64,000 nt of DNA from a virus. Location of the stretch: IMG/VR virus record IMGVR_UViG_3300046648_000141, positions 1-64,000 of that record, one strand, 5' to 3'. Below the pieces are notes generated by a model. That model was given only the letters and a program-made list of their open reading frames with translations, had not been told where the DNA came from and ran no database searches. The number at the start of each line of letters is the position of its first letter. Positions within the stretch are counted from its first letter, which is position 1. A program made the translations under genes and the position numbers. This document shows, one piece after another, positions 6,895-43,542 of this stretch.

Positions 6895-7509
6895 TTGACC
6901 TCTATGGATGCAAAAGCTGCAAAGACGGGCAAGGACAAATGGCCGGCCTTCAACATCGAGCGCCGTGCCGTTGCAGACCTGAAGCCCTACGCAAACAATC
7001 CCCGCACGCATACCGAAGAGCAGATTGCGCAGATTGCCGCAAGCATCCGGGAGTGGGGCTGGACCTCACCTATCCTGATTGACCCGGCCGGCGGCGTCAT
7101 TGCCGGGCACGGGCGTTTGCAGGCGGCGAACCTGCTCGGCATCGTAGAGGTGCCGGTCATCATCGCGGACGCCTGGACGGACGCTCAGAAGCGCGCCTAC
7201 GTGATGGCCGACAATCAGCTCGCTATCAACGCCGGCTGGGACGAAAACCTGCTGGCAATCGAGATCGGCGAGCTTGGCGTAGGCGGCTTCGACATCGACC
7301 TTTTGGGGTTTCCGGAGCTGGATTTAGATAGTATCTATACCCCTAACCTGGAGCCCGGAACCGCCGTTGGGCTAGTAACAGCGGGGGATGTAGACAAGAA
7401 GAAAGGTGACCTTGAAAGCAACTTCACCGACATCAGCAAGCAGACAATCATTCCCATTGCTTGCCCGCACTGCGGTGAAATGTTTTCGGTCAACAAGGAC
7501 ACGCTTTGA
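6895..7509 (+). CDS. ParB-like (nuclease fold) domain protein with zinc ribbon, 204 aa
   Basis: Residues 20-150 (LKPYANNPRTHTEEQIAQIA, ILIDPAGGVIAGHGRLQAA, YVMADNQLAINAGWDENLL) match the ParB/Srx-fold domain that is usually joined to an N4/N6 DNA methyltransferase in phage proteins. Here the methyltransferase half is missing and the chain ends in a zinc-ribbon-like CPHCGEMF. Two separate methyltransferase genes follow directly. It may guide or partner them. Confidence 0.8.
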   Translation: MTSMDAKAAKTGKDKWPAFNIERRAVADLKPYANNPRTHTEEQIAQIAASIREWGWTSPILIDPAGGVIAGHGRLQAANLLGIVEVPVIIADAWTDAQKRAYVMADNQLAINAGWDENLLAIEIGELGVGGFDIDLLGFPELDLDSIYTPNLEPGTAVGLVTAGDVDKKKGDLESNFTDISKQTIIPIACPHCGEMFSVNKDTL

Positions 7510-8303: not shown

Positions 8304-8935
8304 TTCGCACCTTCGGGCCTCACCGCGTCAAGCACGGGGACGTGACACGCGGGATAGATGACCTGATGGCCGGCGACCGCGCCGATATCATGTATAGCGA
8401 CCCGCCGTGGGGCGAAGGCAACATCCGCTATTGGGCGACCATGAACCGGAAGATGACCGGCGCCGAGGTGCAACCGGCGCCGCTCCAGAGCTTCCTGGAC
8501 GCGGTCTTCGGGATTGCCGGCCGCTATGTCTCCGGCTTCCTGCTAATCGAGTATGGAGAACGCTGGGCGGCAATGATCCAGCAGCGGGGCAAGCAGGCCG
8601 GTTTCCAGGAGCACGGAATCGTCAAGCTTCGGTATCGTAGCGGCCGGGACCTCCTGCCGCTGGACCTTCATCTCTTCGCCCGGCCCGGCCTCAACTATCC
8701 GCACGGCTACGCCGAAGCCGTCGAAGGCTCTTATGGCTATGACACTCTTCGCCGCGCCGTGCCGCCGCTGGTGTCCGCCGTCAAGAAGCAGATGCGGCCG
8801 ATCATTCTCGACCCATGCTGTGGCATGGGCTACACGGCGCAAGCGGCGATCGACAACGGCCTCGCCTTCCGGGGCAACGAGTTGAACGCCAAGCGCCTGG
8901 AAAAGACCGTCGCGAGGCTGTCCAAGTGTCAATGA
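8300..8935 (+). CDS. DNA methyltransferase-like protein with DPPW, 211 aa
   Basis: TTG start overlapping the previous stop (TTGA). D34-P-P-W37 is the catalytic motif of DNA amino-methyltransferases, and DPCCGMGYTAQAA (from about residue 171) is the SAM-binding motif. The order, catalysis first and SAM loop last, is that of beta-type enzymes and of MT-A70-like proteins. At 211 residues it is short and lacks a large target-recognition domain, so specificity may come from a partner. Confidence 0.8.
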   Translation: MIRTFGPHRVKHGDVTRGIDDLMAGDRADIMYSDPPWGEGNIRYWATMNRKMTGAEVQPAPLQSFLDAVFGIAGRYVSGFLLIEYGERWAAMIQQRGKQAGFQEHGIVKLRYRSGRDLLPLDLHLFARPGLNYPHGYAEAVEGSYGYDTLRRAVPPLVSAVKKQMRPIILDPCCGMGYTAQAAIDNGLAFRGNELNAKRLEKTVARLSKCQ

Positions 8936-10056
8936 AATTTTATCTGGATGAGAACGTCTTCGACGCCGGCATGGCGCGCATGCGCTGGCTGTTCGATGAG
9001 TTCGAAAACATCGTCGTCAATTTCTCCGGCGGCAAGGATTCGACCGTCTGCCTCAACCTCGCCTTGGCGGTCGCGGAAGAGCGCGGCCGGCTCCCGCTCC
9101 CGGTCCTGTTTATCGACCAGGAGGCGGAGTGGCAGAACGTCATCGATTATGTCCGCGTCGTCATGTCCGATCCGCGCGTCAAGCCGCTCTGGCTTCAAGT
9201 GCCGATCAAGATTTTCAATGCCACGTCCACGACCGAGCCCTGGCTCAAATGCTGGGAGCCCGGCCGGGAGTGGGTCCGCGACAAGGAACCGGACAGCCTC
9301 CACGATAACGTCTTCGGGACCGATCGCTTTTCGGAGATGTTCGGCGCCGTCTTCCATCACTTCTTTCCGGATGCTCCGGCGATTCACATTGCCGGTGTCC
9401 GGGCGGAAGAGAGCCCGGCGCGGATGAAGGGCCTGACGTCTTATGAGACCTACAAGGGCGAGACCTGGGGCAAGGTCGAGGACAAGCGGCGCCAGCAGTT
9501 TACGATGTATCCGATTTATGACTGGTCCTACACCGACGTGTGGAAGGCCATCCACGATCACGGCTGGCCCTATTGCAAGCTCTATGACTACATGTATCAG
9601 CACGGCGTCCCCGTGACGAACATGCGCGTTTCGAACGTCCACCATGAGACCGCCGTCCGCCAGCTCTTTTTCCTACAGGAGATCGAAGGCAAGACCTGGG
9701 ACCGCATCGCCTCGCGGCTTTCCGGCATCAACACGGCGGGGCAGCTCCAGGAGCAGTTTTTCACGCCGAAAGAGCTGCCGCCGATGTTCAAGGACTGGTA
9801 CGAATATCGGGACCATCTGCTGGAAAATCTGGTGCCCGACGAAAAAACGCGCGCCTACTTCCGGCGCACCTTCGCCTCATATGACGCGCGCTACACCGAC
9901 GAGGTGCAGAAGACGCTCGTCAAGACCGAGATCGGCTGCATCCTGTCGAATGATTATCACGGCACGAAGCTCTCGGTGTTCGCTGCCGGTCACGGGATGT
10001 ATAGCAAGAACGCCGGCAAGAAGGGTGGGAGGTTCATTGATGGGCTCCGCACATAA
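8932..10056 (+). CDS. PAPS-reductase-family protein, IbrA-like (DUF3440)
   Basis: The start at MKFYLDENVF overlaps the previous gene by ATGA. NFSGGKDSTV (S32 to T38) is the PP-loop that binds ATP or an adenylylated substrate. The later text (LFIDQEAEW, KCWEPGREWVRD, GVRAEES, PIYDWSYTDVWKAI) follows the IbrA family, with a DUF3440-like C-terminal part. IbrA is known from E. coli as a co-regulator together with IbrB, encoded next to it, as here. The chemistry is not established; sulfur transfer to nucleic acid is possible. Confidence 0.85.
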   Translation: MKFYLDENVFDAGMARMRWLFDEFENIVVNFSGGKDSTVCLNLALAVAEERGRLPLPVLFIDQEAEWQNVIDYVRVVMSDPRVKPLWLQVPIKIFNATSTTEPWLKCWEPGREWVRDKEPDSLHDNVFGTDRFSEMFGAVFHHFFPDAPAIHIAGVRAEESPARMKGLTSYETYKGETWGKVEDKRRQQFTMYPIYDWSYTDVWKAIHDHGWPYCKLYDYMYQHGVPVTNMRVSNVHHETAVRQLFFLQEIEGKTWDRIASRLSGINTAGQLQEQFFTPKELPPMFKDWYEYRDHLLENLVPDEKTRAYFRRTFASYDARYTDEVQKTLVKTEIGCILSNDYHGTKLSVFAAGHGMYSKNAGKKGGRFIDGLRT

Positions 10057-20707: not shown

Positions 20708-21035
20708 GCTGGTCTCACTGGCAAGGGTCAAAAGCGCCCTCCGCATTGACACCAACATCGATGATGAGCTGCTTGACGCCTACATCGCGGCGGCGTCGGC
20801 GGCCGTGGTCAATTATCTCAAGGCGCAAGCCGAGGTATTGCTCGATCTGGATAGCGGCGGTGAAATGCCGTCCGGCACCGAAGTGCCAGCGGAGATCGAA
20901 ATCGCCACGATCATCCTTGTCGGGCATTTCTACAAGGAACCGGACGGGGACGCCGAAGGGGCGTTCGAGCGGGGCTATTTGCCGAAGAAGGTGACGGCCC
21001 TCCTCTATCCCTTGCGTGATCCTGCCTTTGTATGA
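20697..21035 (+). CDS. Head-tail connector protein (gp6-like), 112 aa
   Basis: The start at MTIKLVSLARVKSAL has AAGGATGG upstream. The text LRIDTNIDDELLDAYIAAASAAVVNYL and FYKEPDGDAEGAFERGYLPK is the all-helical gp6-like connector that forms a ring under the portal. It overlaps the stop of the collagen-like gene. Confidence 0.85.
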   Translation: MTIKLVSLARVKSALRIDTNIDDELLDAYIAAASAAVVNYLKAQAEVLLDLDSGGEMPSGTEVPAEIEIATIILVGHFYKEPDGDAEGAFERGYLPKKVTALLYPLRDPAFV

Positions 21036-21664
21036 GCGACCGTGGGCGGCGGCCGGACTGGTTCCCTGATTGGTCAGGGCAGACATGCGTCATCGTCGCT
21101 TCCGGACCGTCCGCGAAGGACGCGCCGATTGAAGCCGCGATCGACCGGGCGCGCTTCATGGTGATCAACACCTCCTGGAGGTTGGCGCCGTGGGCCGACA
21201 TCCTCTTCGCCTGTGACGCGGCGTGGTGGAACCATTCCCAAGGTTGCAAGGCGTTCAAGGGCATGAAGGTCACCACCGACAAGGTGGCGGCCCGCACCTT
21301 CCCGGATATCCATCTGGTCGAATGCCTCAAGCCCGACGATCGCCTGATCCTCAAGCCGGTCGGGACGATCGGATGGGGCGGCAATAGCGGTTTTCACTGC
21401 CTCAATCTCGCGGTGCAGGCCCAATGCGCCAAGATCATCCTTGTCGGCTACGACATGACGCTCACCGGCGGTCTGCATTGGCACGGGGCGCACCCGGACG
21501 GCATGAGCAACCCGAGGTCCGGCAACGTCGAGCGCTGGCGCCGGGCGGTCGATGCAGCGGCAAAGGTCATCAAGCCGCTGGGTATCAAGGTCATCAACTG
21601 CTCGCCGGTTTCGATGCTCCAGAACTATCCGAAAATGACATTCGAGGAAGCGCTGGAAGCATGA
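21032..21664 (+). CDS. DUF115/MptE-like glycosyl- or pyrophosphotransferase-like protein
   Basis: CVIVASGPSAKDAPIEAA followed by VINTSWRLAPWADILFACDA and IILVGYDMTL is the Rossmann-like pattern of DUF115 (6-hydroxymethylpterin pyrophosphokinase MptE-like), a fold related to sialyl- and other glycosyltransferases. It forms an overlapping trio with the next two genes. Action on a sugar nucleotide is likely; acceptor unknown. Confidence 0.7.
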   Translation: MSDRGRRPDWFPDWSGQTCVIVASGPSAKDAPIEAAIDRARFMVINTSWRLAPWADILFACDAAWWNHSQGCKAFKGMKVTTDKVAARTFPDIHLVECLKPDDRLILKPVGTIGWGGNSGFHCLNLAVQAQCAKIILVGYDMTLTGGLHWHGAHPDGMSNPRSGNVERWRRAVDAAAKVIKPLGIKVINCSPVSMLQNYPKMTFEEALEA

Positions 21665-22263
21665 CGAAAGTGAAGACGGTTGCTTGTGTCCTCCGCTCCG
21701 GGGGCGAATACGCGCCGCACCACGTCACGCGATTGCGCGATCAGGTGGCGGAGCATTTGCCCGGCGCCGATTTTCGCTGCCTGTCCGACACAAGCGTTTC
21801 CGGAATCGAATGCATCCCGCTTCGCTACACGTGGCCGGGATGGTGGGCGAAGATGGAGCTTTTCCGTCCGGACCTTCCTGACGACTGGCTCTTCTTCGAC
21901 CTGGACACAAGCATCGTCGGCAGTCTCGCGGACATGGCGGCGGTCGAGGGGCCGGTGATCATGCGTGACGTTTACCGGCCGGGCGGCTGGCAAAGCAGCG
22001 TCATGGCAATTCCGCATGAGATCAAGGCCACGATCTGGGAGGCTTTCACCGTCGCGCCGGAGAGCCGGATGCGGTTCGCGGTCGGCGGAGATCAGGTTTT
22101 TCTTGAGCGCTGCAAAGGCGTCGATTGGCGGCTGTGGCAGGACGTTTTGCCCGGTCAATTGTGCTCGTACAAGGCGGACGTGCGCCGGCTCGGTCGCAAG
22201 CCGCGCGGCGTCCGGGCGGTGATCTTCCACGGCAAACCGCGACCCTGGGAGGTAGGATGGTGA
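21661..22263 (+). CDS. Putative GT-A type glycosyltransferase, 200 aa
   Basis: The start at MTKVKTVACVLRSGGEYAP overlaps the previous gene by ATGA. WLFFDLDTSIVGSLADM holds a DxD motif (DLDT) as used to bind a metal and nucleotide-sugar, preceded by FRCLSDTSVSGIECIPL, typical of small GT-A enzymes. It is placed among head-tail genes, so a virion protein or the host surface may be the acceptor. Confidence 0.72.
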   Translation: MTKVKTVACVLRSGGEYAPHHVTRLRDQVAEHLPGADFRCLSDTSVSGIECIPLRYTWPGWWAKMELFRPDLPDDWLFFDLDTSIVGSLADMAAVEGPVIMRDVYRPGGWQSSVMAIPHEIKATIWEAFTVAPESRMRFAVGGDQVFLERCKGVDWRLWQDVLPGQLCSYKADVRRLGRKPRGVRAVIFHGKPRPWEVGW

Positions 22264-22820
22264 AGCCCTTCGAACAGCGCGGCGGCGCAATCATCCGCCG
22301 CCTGCCGCAGAACGCGCGTGTGGCCGAGGTCGGCGTGCTGATCGGCATCTTGTCCGAGTATCTGCTCCGCAACCGGACGGATATCACTCTTTACATGGTC
22401 GATAGCTGGCTTGAGGCCGGCGAACAGCCCGATCAATACCGCGCCACCGGCGACGTGCACGCCAACCATAATCGCAAGATCGTCCGCGATCATCGCGCCC
22501 AGGCGGAGAACCGCGCCCGGCATTTTCACGGTCGCGCGCAAGTCATGGCGGTGCCCTCGCTTGCGGCTGCGACCCGGTTTAATGACGCCGAACTCGATCT
22601 GGTCTTCCTGGATGCTGATCACAGCTATGCCGGCGTCAGGGCTGACATCGCGGCGTGGCTACCGAAGGTTAAGCCGGGCGGCTGGATCGGCGGCCATGAT
22701 TACAAGAACCCCGATCCGGCGTTCCGCTTCGGCGTCACGGAAGCGGTCGATGAATGGGCCGAGGCGACCGGGCGCAAGATCGAAACCGACGCCAATTTCA
22801 CTTGGTTTGCGAGGGTGTGA
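22257..22820 (+). CDS. SAM-dependent methyltransferase (Methyltransf_24-like), 187 aa
   Basis: The start at MVKPFEQRGG has GGGAGG upstream and overlaps the glycosyltransferase stop. RVAEVGVLIGILSEYLL is the SAM loop in the AEVGV variant. DLVFLDADHSYAGVRADIAAWLP and GGWIGGHDY are typical of the sugar/O-methyltransferase group (Methyltransf_24). With its two neighbours it makes a small glycan-modifying cassette. Confidence 0.8.
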   Translation: MVKPFEQRGGAIIRRLPQNARVAEVGVLIGILSEYLLRNRTDITLYMVDSWLEAGEQPDQYRATGDVHANHNRKIVRDHRAQAENRARHFHGRAQVMAVPSLAAATRFNDAELDLVFLDADHSYAGVRADIAAWLPKVKPGGWIGGHDYKNPDPAFRFGVTEAVDEWAEATGRKIETDANFTWFARV

Positions 22821-25600: not shown

Positions 25601-28600
25601 TTGGCAACCGATCTTGAGCGTCTTGTTGTTCAGCTAAGCGCAGACGTGAAGGGCTACGAGCGCGGGCTAGCCCGTGCGCGTGGCGTGACCAACCGCGAAT
25701 TCAACGGCATCGAAAAGCGCGCCACGACGCTGAACCGCAAGCTGAACGATATCGGCAAAGGCGCGGGACGCTCGTTTGCCGCGCCGGTGGCCGGCATTGG
25801 TTCCGCCCTCGCCATTGCAGAGGTGATCAAATACGCCGACGCCTGGACGACAGCGGAGAACAAGATCGCGGCGGCCGGAGCGGTTGCCGGCCGGGCAGGA
25901 CGGGACCTTTCGGGGATCACCGACATAGCGAACGCGACGCGCGCCGGCATCACCGAGACGGCCGACCTTTACGCCAAGCTGCTTCGTTCCACCAAGGACG
26001 TTGCGAAGAATGAGGAGGAAGTCGCCAGGGCGACGGAGATCGTCAATAAGGCGTTCAAGGCCGGCGGCGCGGCTGCTCAGGAGCAAGCGGCGGGCGTCCT
26101 GCAATTGGGACAGGCCCTTGGCTCCGGCGTGCTTCAGGGTGACGAACTGCGGTCTATTCGTGAGAACGCGCCGCTGATCGCGCAAGCCATTGCCGACGAA
26201 TTCGGCGTCACCATCGGCAAGTTGAAAGACCTTGGGGCGGAAGGCGCGCTTACGTCCGATCGCGTTTTCAAGGCTATCCTGAAAGCCCAGCCGCAAATCG
26301 AAAAGGCGTTCTCGGTCACCAACGCGACCATTGCGGACAGCTTCACCAAGATCGAAAACCAGTTCATCCGCTACATCGGCCAGACCAACGAAGGTCTCGG
26401 CGCCTCAAAGCGGCTGACAGCCGGGCTCAACTTGCTGGCCGACAATTTCGATGCGACGGCCGACACCGCCATCGCCTTCGCCAGCATCCTCGGCGCTGCG
26501 CTCCTCGGCCGTTCGATCGGCAACATGATTGCTTCCATCGGGCTGGGAATCGGAGCGCTCAAGAAGCTCTATAGCGCATTCAAGGCGCTGCGCACGGTTG
26601 GCGCTGCCGGCCTCCTCGGGGCTACTTCGGGTGCGGCCGGACCAATTGGCGCTGCGATCGCCGTGGGTGCCTTGGCTGCGGGTGCCGCGATCACGCATTT
26701 CCAGCTCAAGGCGGCAGAAGCCGAAGAGCGGTCCAAGCGCGTAGCGGCCGAAATGGAAAAGATGGGCATCACCTCCCATCAGGCCGCCGCAGGTGTGGAT
26801 GAAACCGCCTTATCCCTGGAAAAGATTTCGAAAGGCGATGCGGCGCGGTCACTTCGGGACATCAATGATGAGCTGGACCGCATGCGTGGCGGCGGCCTTC
26901 CGGGGAGCCTGGGCAACGAGCTGGGCTCCATTGCAGAGAAGGCGCGCGCCCAGACACGCGGACTTGTCGGCTTTTTCTCTACCTCCGCGATCGACAACAC
27001 GGCGCTGGATCAGATCGCCAAACTCGCCGACGATGTGCGTGACGGCAAGATCGCGGCCGATGAAGCGTTGAAGACGCTTCAAGCAATGGCGGATACCGAG
27101 ATCAGCCGCCCGGTCTATGACCTGAACAAGGCGCTCCAGGTGTCGATCGCACTTTTTCGAGACCTCCAGACCGCTCAGAAGATGAAGGCTGAGACGCCCG
27201 GCGTCCGGGTGCTTACGCTCAGCAAGCAACTTGAGAAAGACACGAAAGATTATGCCGCTGCCGCCGATCAGGTGCGCAAGGCCGCCCAGGATGCGCTGGA
27301 CCGTCTCAACCAAGTCCGCGATGTCTTTGGCAATGATCCAGCCTTCCAGGCCCAGGTAACGGCGCTGGAGACCGTCCGCGACTCGCTTGACGGAACCGCC
27401 GAAGGATCAAACAAGGCGAAAGCAGCGCTACAGGCGCTCGCTGATAGTGACCCAGGCTTTGCCGGTCTTGCCGCCAAACTCAATCCCCTCCTCGATAGGC
27501 TTGGCGAAATCGGTGCTGCCATAAAGACGGCGGCCGAAGGCTTGTTCCAGCTAAACCGCGTTGACGGTCCCACCAAATTCATGCCGCGCGAAGGCGTCCA
27601 GGCGGAGCAAGAAGCGCGCAAGCAGGCCCAGACCACGAATTTTCTCCGTGAAAGGACGGCAAAATCGGCCGGCAAATATGAGGCGTGGACCGTCATCGGC
27701 AGGACGTCGGAAGGCCGGTTGATCGTCGTCAATCCCGACGAAGGCTTGTCAACCGAACTCACGCAGACCGTCGAAGACCCGCGCGGCGGCTTCATGAACG
27801 TGCCGACGCTGTTCTCCGGCAAGCCGGTGCCGATCGAGGAGGCAGTCGATAAGATTATCAAGAACGGCTTCAAAGACCCTGAAACCGGGAGGGCGATCGA
27901 GAATTTCAAAACGGTCGATGCGGCTGTCAAGGCGGCTCAGGCGCGGAGCGCGTCTCTGTCAAGCGACCCCAAATTCATCGAGGCCGATCGCAAATATACC
28001 GAGGTAACCGACCCTGATCTTGCGGAGCGGACCCAGAAAATCCTGAAGGCCGCCGAAGAGGTCGGCGTGGCGATCAGCGAAGCGGCTGCAAAAATCCAAG
28101 CCGAGTCAGAGCTTGCCGCTGAAAAAGCAGCGAAGGATATTCAGAAATCGGCGGAAGCATCGACCGAGGCCGCCTTCAAGCTGATCGCCGACCGCGAGTC
28201 GTTCCGTTCGACCCCCTACAAGGACAATGACGGCAAGCTGCGCGTCGGCTTCGGCTCGGACACCGTGACGCTGTCGGACAATTCAATCCAAAAAGTCGTT
28301 TCAGGCATGACGATCACGATGGCCGACGCCACCCGTGACCTTGATCGCCGGATTGAAGAATTCCAAAGGGGCATCAAAAGCGATATCGGCGCCCCGCGCT
28401 TCTCGGAGTTCAACGACGATCAGCAAGCCGTCCTCACCAGCATCGCCTACAATTACGGCTCGCTGCCGGATCGCATCATCAAGGCGATCAAGGAGGGAAC
28501 CACCGAGGACATCTATAACGCCATCAAGGGCCTTGGCGGCGACAATCAGGGCATCAATCGAAACCGCCGGAACGCCGAGGCCGAGCAATTCCTGTCCGGG

Positions 28601-29506
28601 GCACCGGCCGGCATCCGCGAAGAGATCACCCAGCGCCAAGAGCAACTGAAATACATCCAGGAATCGTCGGCGGCGCGCGCCGAGGAAACCGCCGGCATCA
28701 ACGCCGAAACCTCGATGATGAGCGCTTCCAATGCGGAGCGGGAGCGGGAGCGGTTTGTTCGCGAAGCGCTGAACGATCTTCAGAAGCAAGGCATCGTCGT
28801 CACCGACGAAATGCGCGCTTCCATCGAGGCTGAAGCCGATGCCCGCTTCAATGCGGTTTCCGCCTATGATGCGGCAACGGAAGCGGCCGACCGCCTGAAG
28901 GAGAAGCAGGAGGAGCTGAAAGCGGTTCAGGAGGAGGTGTCTTATGCCTTCCAGGGCGCGCTCAAGGGATTCATTTCCGATCTCGTTCACGGCAAGTCAG
29001 CGACCGAGGCGCTTTATAACGCCGTCTCGCAATTGGCCGATCGCCTGCTTGACATCGCCCTCGACCAAATCTTCAAGTCGCTGTTCAGCGGCGGCACCGG
29101 GGCGGCCGGCGGACTCCTCGGTGGCTTGTTCGGCGGCTTCGCGGCCGGCGGCTACACCGGCGACGGCGGCAAGAACCAGCCGAAGGGTGTGGTTCATGGC
29201 GGCGAGTATGTCTTCTCGAAAAAGGCGACAAACCGGATCGGCGTTGCCAATCTGGAAGCGATGCACAAGGCCGCCCGGCGCGGCTACGCCCAAGGCGGAT
29301 ACGTCCTGCCCCGGATTGGCGGGGCCGGCGGCATGGCGCAAGCCGGAGCCGCCGCGCCGAACGTCGATGCCCGGACGACGGTCATCAATCGTTTTGACGC
29401 TCCATCGTTCCTTTCGGAAGCGCTGGCGCACCCGGACGGGGCGAAGACCATCCTCAATGTTATCCGGGCGCAACCTGCCGTATTCCGGCAGGCGTTGCAG
29501 GGCTAA
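25601..29506 (+). CDS. Tape measure protein with embedded GH24 lysozyme domain, 1301 aa
   Basis: TTG start with GGAG upstream. Residues 1-260 are the tape-measure N-terminal domain (LVVQLSADVKGYERGLARAR; GVLQLGQALGSGVLQGDELR). A hydrophobic stretch (about 295-370) follows. A T4-lysozyme-like GH24 domain lies at about 858-1005, with catalytic E866 in DRESFRSTPYKD and GKLRVGFGSDT, then NDDQQAVLTSIAYNYGSLP. The C-terminal part is coiled, then glycine-rich. It sets tail length and cuts peptidoglycan during DNA entry. Confidence 0.92.
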   Translation: MATDLERLVVQLSADVKGYERGLARARGVTNREFNGIEKRATTLNRKLNDIGKGAGRSFAAPVAGIGSALAIAEVIKYADAWTTAENKIAAAGAVAGRAGRDLSGITDIANATRAGITETADLYAKLLRSTKDVAKNEEEVARATEIVNKAFKAGGAAAQEQAAGVLQLGQALGSGVLQGDELRSIRENAPLIAQAIADEFGVTIGKLKDLGAEGALTSDRVFKAILKAQPQIEKAFSVTNATIADSFTKIENQFIRYIGQTNEGLGASKRLTAGLNLLADNFDATADTAIAFASILGAALLGRSIGNMIASIGLGIGALKKLYSAFKALRTVGAAGLLGATSGAAGPIGAAIAVGALAAGAAITHFQLKAAEAEERSKRVAAEMEKMGITSHQAAAGVDETALSLEKISKGDAARSLRDINDELDRMRGGGLPGSLGNELGSIAEKARAQTRGLVGFFSTSAIDNTALDQIAKLADDVRDGKIAADEALKTLQAMADTEISRPVYDLNKALQVSIALFRDLQTAQKMKAETPGVRVLTLSKQLEKDTKDYAAAADQVRKAAQDALDRLNQVRDVFGNDPAFQAQVTALETVRDSLDGTAEGSNKAKAALQALADSDPGFAGLAAKLNPLLDRLGEIGAAIKTAAEGLFQLNRVDGPTKFMPREGVQAEQEARKQAQTTNFLRERTAKSAGKYEAWTVIGRTSEGRLIVVNPDEGLSTELTQTVEDPRGGFMNVPTLFSGKPVPIEEAVDKIIKNGFKDPETGRAIENFKTVDAAVKAAQARSASLSSDPKFIEADRKYTEVTDPDLAERTQKILKAAEEVGVAISEAAAKIQAESELAAEKAAKDIQKSAEASTEAAFKLIADRESFRSTPYKDNDGKLRVGFGSDTVTLSDNSIQKVVSGMTITMADATRDLDRRIEEFQRGIKSDIGAPRFSEFNDDQQAVLTSIAYNYGSLPDRIIKAIKEGTTEDIYNAIKGLGGDNQGINRNRRNAEAEQFLSGAPAGIREEITQRQEQLKYIQESSAARAEETAGINAETSMMSASNAERERERFVREALNDLQKQGIVVTDEMRASIEAEADARFNAVSAYDAATEAADRLKEKQEELKAVQEEVSYAFQGALKGFISDLVHGKSATEALYNAVSQLADRLLDIALDQIFKSLFSGGTGAAGGLLGGLFGGFAAGGYTGDGGKNQPKGVVHGGEYVFSKKATNRIGVANLEAMHKAARRGYAQGGYVLPRIGGAGGMAQAGAAAPNVDARTTVINRFDAPSFLSEALAHPDGAKTILNVIRAQPAVFRQALQG

Positions 29507-38232: not shown

Positions 38233-39093
38233 ATGGCGGCCAAGAATTTTGATGACTGCCTCGCGAGGGTGCTTGTCCACGAGGGCGGCTATGTCGATGA
38301 CCCCAGGGACCCCGGCGGGGCGACAAATCAGGGCATCACCCAGCGGACTTATGACGCCTACCGGCGGAGCAAGAGGCAGTCCACCCGCGCCGTGCGGTTG
38401 ATGACGCCGCCGGAGCGCAATGAGATTTACCGGCGGCAATACTGGGACGCGGTGCAGGGCGACACGTTGCCGGACGGACTCGATTCCGTTCTGTTTGACG
38501 GCGCCGTGCATAGCGGCCCGAAGCAGTCGATCAAATGGCTACAGCGAGCGCTCGGCAACTCCTACCACGGGACGATTGATGGAGTGATCGGCCTCGCCAC
38601 CTTCGCGGCGCTGGAGTCGACCACGAACTATTCCCAGCTTATCGATCGGATTTGCGATCGGCGGCTGGCCTTTCTCCGGACACTCGACGGCTGGGCGCAC
38701 TTCGGCAAAGGCTGGAAGCGGCGCGTTGACAATGTCCGGGCGGTCGCCAAGGCCGACGTTCTGGATATCAAGAATCCGTCCACGGTCCTTGCCGTCCCGT
38801 TGCCCGGCGGCGAGGCAAAGGCGAGGATCGAGGACGCGCGCCGGGCACCATCGAAAGCGCCCGGAGATGCGGCAACCGGCGGCGGGCTCGGCGGCCTCGG
38901 GATTGCCGGCGTCCTACAAGGGCTTCAAGAGCAACTGACACCATACAGCATCGCCGGCGGCTGGATTGGAAAGCTCGTGATTATCCTGGCCGTCAGCGGC
39001 GCGCTATTCACCATCGGCGGCATCGCCTACCGCTGGTATGCGAAGCGGCAGCAAGCCAAGATCGCCGACGCGCTCGACGCGGTGCCGGCATGA
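38233..39093 (+). CDS. Endolysin, glycoside hydrolase 108 family, with C-terminal membrane helix
   Basis: LVHEGGYVDDPRDPGGATNQ (catalytic E17 in the EGGY motif) followed by GITQRTYDAY and the PG_binding_3-like DSVLFDGAVHSGPKQSIKWL marks a GH108 lysozyme of about 180 residues. A linker and a transmembrane helix (about 243-265, LVIILAVSGALFTIGGIAYR) follow, then a basic tail. The membrane anchor at the C-terminus is unusual for an endolysin and would hold it at the membrane until lysis. Confidence 0.88.
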   Translation: MAAKNFDDCLARVLVHEGGYVDDPRDPGGATNQGITQRTYDAYRRSKRQSTRAVRLMTPPERNEIYRRQYWDAVQGDTLPDGLDSVLFDGAVHSGPKQSIKWLQRALGNSYHGTIDGVIGLATFAALESTTNYSQLIDRICDRRLAFLRTLDGWAHFGKGWKRRVDNVRAVAKADVLDIKNPSTVLAVPLPGGEAKARIEDARRAPSKAPGDAATGGGLGGLGIAGVLQGLQEQLTPYSIAGGWIGKLVIILAVSGALFTIGGIAYRWYAKRQQAKIADALDAVPA

Positions 39094-39356
39094 TCGCCTA
39101 CCTTGCAAGTCCGATCGGCAAGATTGCCGCCGCCATCATCGTCGCCGCCGTGCTTGTCGGCGCCGGCTACATCAAGGGCCGGGAAGACGGCAAGCTCCGG
39201 CAAATGAAGGACACAGTCGAGGCGGTTCAAAATCGCGGGGTGATCAACAATGAAGTTAGCAAACTTCCTGATTATAGCTTGTGCATCCGTCTTGGCGGCC
39301 TGCCAGACGACTGCGCTCAATTGCGCGGGATGGACGCCACCCCCCAAGGCAAATAA
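39090..39356 (+). CDS. Inner-membrane spanin (Rz-like), 88 aa
   Basis: A short N-terminal membrane helix (about 9-27, IGKIAAAIIVAAVLVGAGYI) is followed by a periplasmic charged helix. It lies straight after the endolysin, and an outer-membrane lipoprotein frame begins inside it (39250), the classic Rz/Rz1 layout. Together they fuse the two membranes in the last step of lysis. Confidence 0.82.
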   Translation: MIAYLASPIGKIAAAIIVAAVLVGAGYIKGREDGKLRQMKDTVEAVQNRGVINNEVSKLPDYSLCIRLGGLPDDCAQLRGMDATPQGK

Positions 39357-39447
39357 CCCGGTGCGGCTGGTGCAGGAGGAACAAGGTCTTTCCCGCTGGA
39401 TCATCGCAACCGATCAGTTCGGAAAGAAACAAGGTTGCTGGAAATAG
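39250..39447 (+). CDS. Outer-membrane spanin lipoprotein (Rz1-like), 65 aa
   Basis: MKLANFLIIACASVLAAC is a lipoprotein signal with lipobox LAAC (C18). The mature part is about 48 residues long, with two prolines in a row and more (WTPPPKANNP). It begins inside the Rz-like gene in another frame and runs past its end, as overlapping Rz1 genes do. Confidence 0.82.
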   Translation: MKLANFLIIACASVLAACQTTALNCAGWTPPPKANNPVRLVQEEQGLSRWIIATDQFGKKQGCWK

Positions 39448-39458
39448 GAGAAATTCCG

Positions 39459-39662
39459 ATGCCGCTTTTGCAGATGCTTTTGGTGATCTTGGTCATCTCG
39501 CTTGTCGCCGCCCTTGTTGCCGGCGTGCTTGTCTTCCTGATCCGGAGCGCGCCCTTCCTGCCTGAACCTTATAAGGCGTGGGCAGTATGGGCGGTCATCG
39601 CGATCGTCGCGCTGGTCGCGCTGATCAAGATTTTGCCGGCAGTGGGAGTGCCCACCTATTGA
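39459..39662 (+). CDS. Holin-like membrane protein, 67 aa
   Basis: Starts at MPLLQMLLVILVI with AGGAG upstream. It has two transmembrane helices (about 3-28 and 40-62) joined by a short loop with a proline pair (FLPEPYKAW). Size, topology and place beside the endolysin suit a small holin that makes the membrane hole. Other nearby membrane proteins could also fill that role. Confidence 0.65.
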   Translation: MPLLQMLLVILVISLVAALVAGVLVFLIRSAPFLPEPYKAWAVWAVIAIVALVALIKILPAVGVPTY

Positions 39663-40126
39663 ACGTGCGCGCCGCTCTTGCCATTGGGTGGCGCTGGTTT
39701 GCCCACGCATCCGGCGTCATCCTCATCGCCGGGGCAATCTCCTTCGGCGTCCTGCATCTCTTCTCGATCAATGGCCCCGTCGTTACCGTGACCGAGGGGC
39801 CGGGCTACATTTCCAGCGTCGTGCCCTACCGAGGGGTCCTGACCTACAAGATTTCGACCGAGCGCCACGCCTCCTGTCCCGGCCGGGTGATCGTCAGTTT
39901 TACCTTCCAGGGCGGGGGTCCGCCGGTTACCGTGCTCTTGAGCCGGCCGATCCTTTCCACCGAGATCAAGCAGACTGACGACGCCACTATTTATTTTCAA
40001 CTGCCGGAGAACGTTTACCCCGGCCGCTGGTTATTCCGGTCAGTTGTGGACAGCACATGTCCGACCTATTCGCGCCAGGATGTAACCGCACAATTCCCGT
40101 TCGAGGTGACCCACAATGTGGACTGA
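39659..40126 (+). CDS. Membrane-anchored protein of lysis region, 155 aa
   Basis: TTG start overlapping the previous stop by TTGA (GTG at 39665 is possible). One N-terminal helix (about 10-32, WFAHASGVILIAGAISFGVL) is followed by a beta-rich domain with two cysteines (C63, C139) that could form a disulfide outside the membrane. The fold looks immunoglobulin-like, but no family is recognised. Confidence 0.7.
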   Translation: MNVRAALAIGWRWFAHASGVILIAGAISFGVLHLFSINGPVVTVTEGPGYISSVVPYRGVLTYKISTERHASCPGRVIVSFTFQGGGPPVTVLLSRPILSTEIKQTDDATIYFQLPENVYPGRWLFRSVVDSTCPTYSRQDVTAQFPFEVTHNVD

Positions 40127-40490
40127 CATCCTCAATTTCTTCGGCGCCGAACGCTATTCCCAGCACTCCATCTGCCTGACCAATGATCCGGTCATGATCT
40201 TCCTCTATGTGCTGTCTGATCTTTCCACCTTCGCGTCTTATTTCGCGATCGGCCTTTCACTGATTATCATAGCGCGCGTTCCGCCCATCCGCGTGAGGCC
40301 AACGATGCGGCTCTTGTTCGGGTCTTTCATCTTCCTATGCGGTCTTTCCCATCTCACAAGCGTAATTACCCTCTTCACCGGCGTCTATCGTCTCGACATC
40401 CTTGTCAGAGCCGCGATGGCCGCCGTCTCGGTCATGACCGCAATCGCCGTTGTAAACGACTATTTCCGTCAACAGCCGAAGAGCACGTGA
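40116..40490 (+). CDS. Ethylene-receptor-like three-helix membrane protein, 124 aa
   Basis: Three transmembrane helices (about 27-53, 63-88, 93-113). The residues that bind copper and ethylene in plant ETR1 have counterparts at the same spacing: D35, Y42, I45, I72, C75 and H79 here match D25, Y32, I35, I62, C65 and H69 there, with D to C 40 residues apart in both. P36 of ETR1 is G46 here. No kinase or GAF part follows. A small metal- or ligand-binding sensor is suggested by homology; its job in a phage lysis region is unknown. Confidence 0.75.
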   Translation: MWTDILNFFGAERYSQHSICLTNDPVMIFLYVLSDLSTFASYFAIGLSLIIIARVPPIRVRPTMRLLFGSFIFLCGLSHLTSVITLFTGVYRLDILVRAAMAAVSVMTAIAVVNDYFRQQPKST

Positions 40491-40491
40491 G

Positions 40492-40695
40492 ATGGATGCG
40501 GAGGCGTTCTTGACCGTCACGGCAACATTCCTCATCGCCATCAGTTGCGGCGTCATCACGTATCGGGTTTCCATCCGGCAAGCGAAACAGGAGATCGACG
40601 CGGCCTTCCAGCAGCACATTGAGCGGATGCACCACGAGCATCGCCAGTTCGTTGAAGAGGTTGCGGAGACGGTCGAGCAAGAACCGAAGGACTGA
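40492..40695 (+). CDS. Small membrane protein with coiled tail, 67 aa
   Basis: A membrane helix at residues 5-24 (AFLTVTATFLIAISCGVITY) is followed by a charged helical tail (RQAKQEIDAAFQQHIERMHH). It lies one base after the previous stop. It may modulate holin or endolysin; role unknown. Confidence 0.65.
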   Translation: MDAEAFLTVTATFLIAISCGVITYRVSIRQAKQEIDAAFQQHIERMHHEHRQFVEEVAETVEQEPKD

Positions 40696-40698
40696 GAT

Positions 40699-41025
40699 GT
40701 GGACCTCGCACCTTTTCTCACGTTCGGCGGAGCCGTCCTGACGGCTGTGTTCACGGTCATCGGTACTATCTATGTCGCCCGCTCCCGGACGAAGACCGAT
40801 CTTGGCGCTTCCATCACCAGCGGCTTCCGGGAATTGACCGATCAGCTCCAGGAGGAGCGCAGCCAGTTGAGCGAGATCATCAAGCGGCAGCGGGAGGAGT
40901 TGGCGGACGTCGAAAAGGTGACGGACAGGCAAGAGCACACAATTCGGCGAATGCGCCGCCGTGTGGCCCTCCTGGAAAACAAACTGGCAAAGGCCGGGCT
41001 AGATATACCGCCCGGCGATCAATAG
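40699..41025 (+). CDS. Membrane-anchored coiled-coil protein, 108 aa
   Basis: GTG start. One helix (5-26, PFLTFGGAVLTAVFTVIGTI) is followed by a long coiled coil (ELTDQLQEERSQLSEIIKRQ; VALLENKLAKAGL). It is the last gene of the late operon. The layout is like an antiholin or spanin-like partner, but it carries no clear signature. Confidence 0.65.
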   Translation: MDLAPFLTFGGAVLTAVFTVIGTIYVARSRTKTDLGASITSGFRELTDQLQEERSQLSEIIKRQREELADVEKVTDRQEHTIRRMRRRVALLENKLAKAGLDIPPGDQ

Positions 41026-42330: not shown

Positions 42331-43542
42331 TCACTCTCCGATGATTCGCAATCGCGGCGGTTTGCGTTGTGCTCCGAATCGTTCCTCCAAGAGCTTTGCG
42401 GCGGCGGTGGTGGTTTTCATTTTATCCAGACCCTTCGCATAGAGAACCACTTGCTGCATGGTCGTGTGACCAAGCATATCCTTCTGCATCTGGAACGAAG
42501 CGCCGCTGACGGCAACCATCTGGGCGTAGGATTTCCGCAAACCATGCAGGGTATAGCCGGCCGGGATGTCGGCTTGCTTGCACCAATGCGCCATCATGCC
42601 GGTCAGGCTCTTTTCCGAGAACGGCTTACCATAGGCCGTCTTGAGAACCGTGCCCTCATCCCGCGTGAGCGGCTCCAGCGCATCGGCTAGCATCGTCGTC
42701 AGCGGCCGGAACTGTTCCATGTCCTCGTCATTCTGGACGCGCTTCCGCTGCTCAAAATAAAAGCCGGTCACCAGCTCCCCGTCGATCTCGACGGTAATGA
42801 GCTGGGGCCAGCTCAGGTGCGCGATGTCTCCGCGCCGGTTGCCCAACCATTTTGCGAGGGCGTAGCAGGTGCGCGCCGCCGTCCCGATCGCATGTCTTGC
42901 TTCAAATTTTAGTTGGATTGGTTCCGGCCATGATTTCCAGCCGACATAACCGCCGTTCTTGCCGGCCCCACGCTTCCATTTGACAAGCTCGGTCGGATCG
43001 TCGTCGCGCATCTTCTTTCGCCGGGCGATGTAGAAAATTTTCCGCAGCATTACTTTCATGTGCCACGGCTTCGATGGTGCGAGTGCCGCCCAGCGGTCCC
43101 GGAGCTTTTCAAGATGTTCAAAGGTCATTTGGCTGACCGGAACGTCTCCCCATTTCAGCGGCTTATTGGGATTGATGGGCATGCCCAAAAATTCCTTCGC
43201 CATTCGCTCATTCTTGCTCTGGCTTTGCGCGTCCAGGTCCTTCCACTCCGCCGTCGCAAGAACCAGCTTCCACGCGTGCCGGAAGGTCTGCGGCAACGAC
43301 GCGGTGGGTATCTCAATCACATCAGCTTTCGCCACCGCCGGCCGGGCCTGAACGATCGCCTCATAGGCGTCATCAAATGCGCCAGTGTACGGTTCGAGGC
43401 CCATCGCGATCAGTTGCGGCTTGAGACCGGTTTTGCGCACCCGGTAACGGGTTTTCCCGTGCCGATCCTCCCAAACGCCAATTCCCGGATACTTCGCCTT
43501 GAGCGCGGCGGGCGTTTTCCCTTTGGCCTTTTGCTTAGACAT
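42331..43542 (-). CDS. int: Tyrosine recombinase integrase, 403 aa
   Basis: The C-terminal catalytic domain has R236 (GNRRGD), H333-G-L-R336 (HGLRKSYA), L357-G-H359 (MLGHTT) and the nucleophile Y368 (VVLYAKG), the full set for a tyrosine recombinase. The N-terminal part (about 85-180) is the core-binding domain, and residues 1-50 look like an arm-binding domain (WEDRHGKTRYRVRKTG). It integrates and excises the phage; candidate sites lie just downstream at 42120-42300. Confidence 0.93.
   Translation of the reverse strand: MSKQKAKGKTPAALKAKYPGIGVWEDRHGKTRYRVRKTGLKPQLIAMGLEPYTGAFDDAYEAIVQARPAVAKADVIEIPTASLPQTFRHAWKLVLATAEWKDLDAQSQSKNERMAKEFLGMPINPNKPLKWGDVPVSQMTFEHLEKLRDRWAALAPSKPWHMKVMLRKIFYIARRKKMRDDDPTELVKWKRGAGKNGGYVGWKSWPEPIQLKFEARHAIGTAARTCYALAKWLGNRRGDIAHLSWPQLITVEIDGELVTGFYFEQRKRVQNDEDMEQFRPLTTMLADALEPLTRDEGTVLKTAYGKPFSEKSLTGMMAHWCKQADIPAGYTLHGLRKSYAQMVAVSGASFQMQKDMLGHTTMQQVVLYAKGLDKMKTTTAAAKLLEERFGAQRKPPRLRIIGE

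Follow-up and report, generated by a model that had tools for sequence, protein, structure and literature searches.

The 64,000-nucleotide stretch of viral DNA analysed here (positions 1 to 64,000 of IMG/VR record IMGVR_UViG_3300046648_000141, hereafter the window) carries, among the lysis genes of a phage, a gene for a 124-residue protein whose sequence places it firmly within the ethylene-receptor sensor family (ETR1_N). Ethylene-binding domains (EBDs) serve as kinase input modules in plants, cyanobacteria and other bacteria. The window protein, which has neither a GAF nor a kinase domain, belongs to this domain family but falls short of a full ethylene receptor. The placement of EBDs in phage lysis cassettes is genuine and recurrent, and it appears to be undescribed: we found no paper in the open-licence literature that links EBDs to phages, an absence that is not proof, and the paper on the Maribacter phages discussed below describes proteins with 1–4 transmembrane domains (TMDs) near the lysins, with ethylene unmentioned (PMC8776804). 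The existence of separate EBD proteins in lysis cassettes implies that the module is able to work in the absence of a kinase. It also implies that a virus may be equipped with a membrane sensor based on a metal, with which copper or a small molecule may be detected in the control of lysis.

The full IMG/VR record (67,913 bp) contains terminase, capsid, portal, tape-measure and tail genes together with an integrase, and we therefore take it to represent a temperate tailed phage. Since phages of rhizobia and agrobacteria are among its nearest relatives by capsid and endolysin, the host is likely, on these sequence relationships, to be alphaproteobacterial. The lysis cassette and its edge are laid out as follows.

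38233–39093, plus strand: endolysin with GH108 and PG_binding_3 domains (Pfam E = 4.9e-27 and 1.4e-7; PHROG 315 endolysin, E = 1.2e-48)
39090–39356, plus strand: i-spanin, Rz-like (PHROG 12535, E = 4.6e-12; PHROG 1026 Rz-like, E = 3.5e-4)
39250–39447, plus strand: o-spanin, Rz1-like, overlapping the i-spanin (lipobox LAAC in the sequence; order as in phage Milano)
39459–39662, plus strand: small protein with two transmembrane (TM) segments, holin-like by size and place only (gene call; uncalled in the relative L007)
39659–40126, plus strand: membrane-anchored Ig-like protein, overlapping the start of the EBD gene (alignment, AlphaFold2 model, gene calls)
40116–40490, plus strand: stand-alone ETR1_N (EBD) protein, 124 aa (PF25487, E = 7.2e-19; AlphaFold2; residue table)
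40492–40695, plus strand: small one-TM protein with a charged C-terminal helix (gene call; weak counterparts in L133 and L017)
40699–41025, plus strand: one-TM and coiled-coil protein (PHROG 2658 "hol-like chemotaxis", E = 1.4e-8)
42331–43542, minus strand: tyrosine integrase, at the module edge (PF00589, E = 5.7e-8; PHROG 1 integrase)

From the endolysin through the coiled-coil gene, all genes lie on one strand, with frames overlapping or abutting. The first-pass annotation of this DNA had proposed a 124-residue protein encoded at 40116–40490, standing alone without kinase or GAF domain among holin-like and spanin genes of a lysis cassette, and most of this description is upheld. Translation of the plus-strand frame gives a 124-aa, three-helix membrane protein, codon usage calls the frame as coding, and the protein stops at residue 124, after helix 3; no kinase match was obtained among the window neighbours scanned against Pfam and PHROGs, and Pfam finds no HisKA or HATPase domain in the adjacent genes at 40492–41025. 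The lysis setting is also correct, and recurs in other phages, as shown below. As for the neighbours, the spanins stand (one has a PHROG Rz-like match, the other a visible lipobox), whereas the holin-like assignment does not extend beyond size and place, as the frame at 39459–39662 matches no family. The dN/dS ratio of the EBD gene against four relatives is 0.08–0.25, and the gene is therefore under purifying selection. Its upstream neighbour, the Ig-like protein, combines an N-terminal TM helix with a β-sandwich and two conserved Cys residues (AlphaFold2 pLDDT 81), and its BFVD fold matches are phage proteins, all at ≤17% identity. We note separately that the C-terminal TM segment of the endolysin is weakly similar to Phage_holin_10 (E = 0.02, below the cut-off); this tail, resembling the Pam3 gp28 holin family below the cut-off, could make the protein an endolysin–holin fusion or a membrane-anchored endolysin.

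The case for family membership rests on two comparisons. Pfam PF25487 (ETR1_N) matches residues 27–113 with 68.3 bits (E = 7.2e-19), far above the curated cut-off of 27 bits, so that the resemblance to the ethylene-binding domain noticed in the first reading is borne out as homology, and hhalign of a phage-only profile (six sequences) against a bacteria-only profile (16 sequences) gives 99.8%, with E = 1.2e-28 over 109 columns. Taken together, the two rule out a chance likeness of a three-TM protein. AlphaFold2, run on 69 aligned sequences (L013 and a few other rows left out), confidently predicts a fold of three long TM helices (residues 25–51, 62–88 and 91–119; pLDDT 88.9, pTM 0.77). C75 and H79 fall on the same face of the continuous predicted helix 62–88, one helical turn apart (40 degrees on an ideal helical wheel), in agreement with the geometry expected of them at the outset, and ideal wheels place D35, Y42 and G46 on one face of helix 1. 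At E ≤ 1e-3, BFVD yields a single match, to a viral protein of 289 aa (TMq 0.73), equal in length to the Maribacter phage protein Molly1_65 (see below), and no PHROGs family matches the window protein. A search of the PDB by sequence or fold returned nothing significant, and the 124-aa protein thus offers a short, naturally isolated form of a domain for which we found no solved structure.

The residues around the copper site provide a finer comparison. In an alignment with Arabidopsis ETR1, D35, Y42, I45, I72, C75 and H79 of the window protein correspond to D25, Y32, I35, I62, C65 and H69, G46 to P36, and R98, as a conservative counterpart, to K91; both the spacing and the P36-to-glycine replacement given in the first-pass annotation are thereby reproduced, and R98 adds a correspondence that it had overlooked. 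The numbering of the locus L014 protein agrees with this alignment, as does that of AzoEtr1, the ethylene receptor of Azospirillum brasilense (PMC11819568). The latter aligns with the window protein without gaps over ~120 residues (about 32% identity), has D35, C75 and H79 at the same numbers, K98 where the window protein has R98, and an N-terminal HxxC, a motif overlooked in the first reading but present in the window protein (H17, C20) and in bacterial sensors. It differs in being a two-component kinase with the proline kept, whereas the window protein ends after helix 3 and has G46. Likewise, the likeness to the Arabidopsis ETR1 sensor domain extends to the three helices, the Cu(I) ligands C65 and H69, and D25, Y32, I35 and I62, whereas the window protein lacks the GAF, kinase and receiver domains and has glycine for P36 and arginine for K91.

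In ETR1, Y32 is required for ethylene binding. I35, P36, I62, C65, H69 and D25 are needed as well (PMC6586836, PMC11819568). Six of these seven residues are kept in the window protein, and the full set is broken at G46. The ETR1 TMD binds Cu(I), one ion per monomer, and acts as a dimer, with C65 and H69 modelled at the dimer interface (PMC6586836). A review reports a conserved Asp–Lys salt bridge in an AlphaFold model, and that replacing the Asp by Asn leaves the receptor functional with about 100-fold lower affinity (PMC13012798); a role in linking binding with output has been suggested for the pair (PMC13012798, PMC11819568). In the window protein, D35 with R98 is a conservative change of this pair.

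Across the 12 phage copies, the equivalents of C65, H69, Y32, I35 and I62 are invariant, whereas P36 is replaced by G in eight and S in three and is retained in one, the D25 equivalent is kept in six, and the K91 equivalent is R in six and K in none. The bacterial copies keep P36 in 86 of 90 cases, D25 in 85 and K91 in 85, and have D paired to K or R in 85; these loci were mostly fetched by an LF-FI-CG pattern, by which conservation at window positions 67, 68, 71, 72, 75 and 76 was partly selected, and positions 35, 42, 46, 79 and 98 lie outside that pattern. In the phage lineages, the D25–K91 pair behaves as a unit that is either kept or lost: the window clade and Chelatococcus both have the acid–base pair (D with R), which the remaining six lineages have lost (GH, NV, YL, HV, NC, ND). 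These natural variants separate copper ligation, which is always kept, from the Asp–Lys pair and P36, which are often lost. On this pattern of conservation, Cu(I) binding is likely retained in the phage copies; we infer that ethylene affinity and coupling would be altered, and ethylene binding by the window protein itself is uncertain.

Close EBD relatives (77–92% identity) are found on the IMG/VR contigs L001/L005, L002/L006, L003 and L007, and more distant ones on L008, L017 and L022 (~50% identity) and on L023/L135 and L024/L136. In Chelatococcus reniformis, one copy is intact and prophage-like (L026/L133), and a second in the same genome has decayed, with internal stops (L027/L134, G001:C7:61119-61385). 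The isolated Maribacter phages Molly and Colly also carry an EBD protein. These were matched in INPHARED with the L008 protein as the query only; the window protein as query retrieved no EBD relative there, and a core-profile search for further carriers returned known contigs only. An N-terminal DNA pattern added one new contig, L146, which was discarded as a chance match without an ETR1_N match. Among 397 genomes of the order, this pattern was found in Chelatococcus only. In bacteria, the EBD usually stands at the head of a protein of ~390–900 aa, and 28 of the 385 genomes sampled from the class of Chelatococcus have one, nearly all in long frames. A viral-classed contig with the EBD in a 389-aa kinase-like frame (L025:5812-6981) was set aside as probable host DNA; it would otherwise be a phage-borne EBD kinase.

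The tree joins the window clade to Chelatococcus at 98%, and recovers a wider phage group, which includes one bacterial stand-alone copy, at 53–75% support. L023, L024 and Molly are placed outside this weakly supported group, and phages have therefore likely acquired the EBD several times. We reject a recent pickup from a host kinase gene, both by the identity of only ~25–45% between phage copies and bacterial histidine kinase-linked copies and by the N-terminal stretch ERYSQHxxCLTNDP, which the closer phage copies share and the bacterial copies lack.

The link to lysis holds in most of these lineages. An endolysin lies within 2 kb of the EBD gene in seven of eight, at gaps of a few bases to about 1,900, and belongs to six unrelated types: GH108 in the window, a PF11860 muramidase in L008 and L133, a phage tail lysozyme in L017, GH19 in L022, VanY/M15 in L136, and an Amidase_3 directly downstream of the EBD gene in Molly. 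In the eighth lineage, L135, no recognised endolysin lies near the EBD gene. A homologous one-TM coiled-coil gene follows the EBD gene in five lineages (the window, L133, L022, L017 and L008; z 12.8–19.7 against the window gene), and the TM coiled-coil genes of L135, L136 and Molly have a like layout, with homology to the window gene not demonstrable. In L017, L022 and the Chelatococcus locus L133, an Ig-like homologue precedes the EBD gene, and the order Ig-like, EBD, coiled-coil recurs. Because five of the lineages may share one ancestral module (tree support 53–75%), the co-occurrences of EBD and lysis genes are not all independent. Agrobacterium phage Milano has an endolysin 48% identical to that of the window, in a cassette annotated with endolysin, i-spanin and o-spanin only, without any EBD-type protein. 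The EBD block is thus an addition to a seemingly complete cassette, and the EBD, as an accessory, need not act on lysis.

Also among the nearest known systems is Molly1_65 of Maribacter phage Molly_1 (QQO97550.1, L012:6890-7759), annotated as hypothetical, which matches ETR1_N at E = 1.5e-16. Its gene lies directly after a TM coiled-coil gene and directly upstream of the amidase; it differs from the window protein (about 23% identity) in its 289-aa length, with an extra C-terminal part of ~160 aa, and in having N and D at the D25 and K91 equivalents. In three bacterial operons (L128:5332-7175, L129:4693-7156 and L130:4391-6528), a stand-alone EBD of 135–140 aa is directly followed by a separate TM histidine kinase, with CHASE3 in one and a weak Cache domain in another, whereas the phage partner is a short TM coiled-coil protein. 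These three genomes of the class thus contain natural split ethylene-receptor-like systems, a precedent for a split sensor; the window has no adjacent separate histidine kinase that would make it a split two-component system of this kind. The T4 antiholin RI, a lysis protein believed to sense an envelope signal and delay lysis, is a functional parallel only; it is unrelated to the EBD, being periplasmic and believed to sense phage DNA (PMC8385771).

Building on the observed family, copper ligands, purifying selection and neighbourhood of the window EBD, our preferred reading, which we consider plausible though still short of an even chance, is that the kinase-less EBD acts as sensory subunit in a small membrane module produced late in infection together with the lysis proteins. 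The EBD protein would likely form dimers in the inner membrane, in which C75 and H79 hold Cu(I) between them; the conserved H17-x-x-C20 would likely lie near the outer face. The subsequent steps are uncertain: a change at the site, be it in the amount of Cu(I), in redox state or in a small ligand (an alkene, for instance), may move helices 1 and 3 via D35–R98, lateral transfer of the signal to the neighbouring TM coiled-coil protein (40699–41025), a candidate partner, may follow, and lysis may be delayed or advanced. The lateral signalling is modelled on the stand-alone bacterial EBDs, whose presumed receiver is the separate TM histidine kinase encoded next door. The partner, the ligand and the effect on lysis are thus put forward less firmly than copper binding, and as six lineages lost the D/K pair, conservation of the coupling mechanism cannot be taken for granted. 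The wider proposition, that phages of at least two bacterial phyla recruited a kinase-stripped EBD as an environmental sensor (of copper, redox state or an unsaturated gas) for timing lysis, we regard as somewhat unlikely. Whether phages consult a chemical signal before deciding to lyse also becomes testable.

Among the alternatives, the gene could be a moron, serving superinfection exclusion or envelope stress beside the lysis genes without a role in lysis. Its site between the lysis genes and the integrase is a common one for morons, and the adjoining Ig-like membrane protein is in keeping with such a function. However, the gene shares the strand of the late genes, with frames overlapping or abutting, neither the EBD nor the Ig-like protein matches a defence family, and an EBD gene also lies beside a lysis gene in phage Molly, which has no integrase (PMC8776804), all of which makes this unlikely in our view.

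The EBD protein could itself be the holin or pinholin, its copper site being a relic or a structural brace, but we think this less likely. The size of ~124 aa, the three TM helices and the place in a late lysis operon would suit a holin, and the window has no clearly identified separate one. Nevertheless, no holin family in Pfam, PHROGs or NCBIfam matches the EBD protein, its BFVD fold list contains holins at E > 2 only, and the Chelatococcus cassette has its own separate Phage_holin_10 (L133:8889-9209, E = 2.3e-11). The C-terminal TM segment of the window endolysin and the Milano endolysin–spanin cassette annotated without an EBD also speak against it, and invariant copper ligands in all 12 phage copies would be unexpected in a mere pore.

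Less likely again is that the protein serves as a decoy or dominant-negative subunit, pairing with the EBD histidine kinases of the host, or with the partners of these, and so rewiring the signalling of the infected cell. The dimeric state of the ETR1 TMD (PMC6586836) would allow such pairing, and groups that probably include hosts do contain EBD proteins: P0001 has relatives in 65 of 397 genomes of the Chelatococcus family, and a 509-aa frame with an EBD is also present in the Chelatococcus genome that bears the prophage. Most of the sampled genomes of the class nevertheless lack an EBD, and a gene for host signalling needs no fixed place in the lysis cassettes of unrelated phages. Finally, a true ethylene or alkene sensor by which phages of plant-associated bacteria time lysis would fit the six retained binding residues, the D35–R98 pair of the window clade and the rhizobial and agrobacterial phage relatives, but with G46 in place of P36 and the D lost in marine Maribacter phages and others, it is the least likely of these possibilities.

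Elsewhere in the window, we note a ParB-like gene at 6904–7509 (PHROG 620, E = 3.3e-51), a PAPS-reductase-like gene at 8932–10056 (PHROG 2302, E = 4.7e-84), three genes at 21032–22820, of glycosyltransferase and methyltransferase type by reading, between the head and tail genes, and a tape-measure protein at 25685–29506, part of which matches endolysin families (PHROG 3572, E = 1.8e-21).
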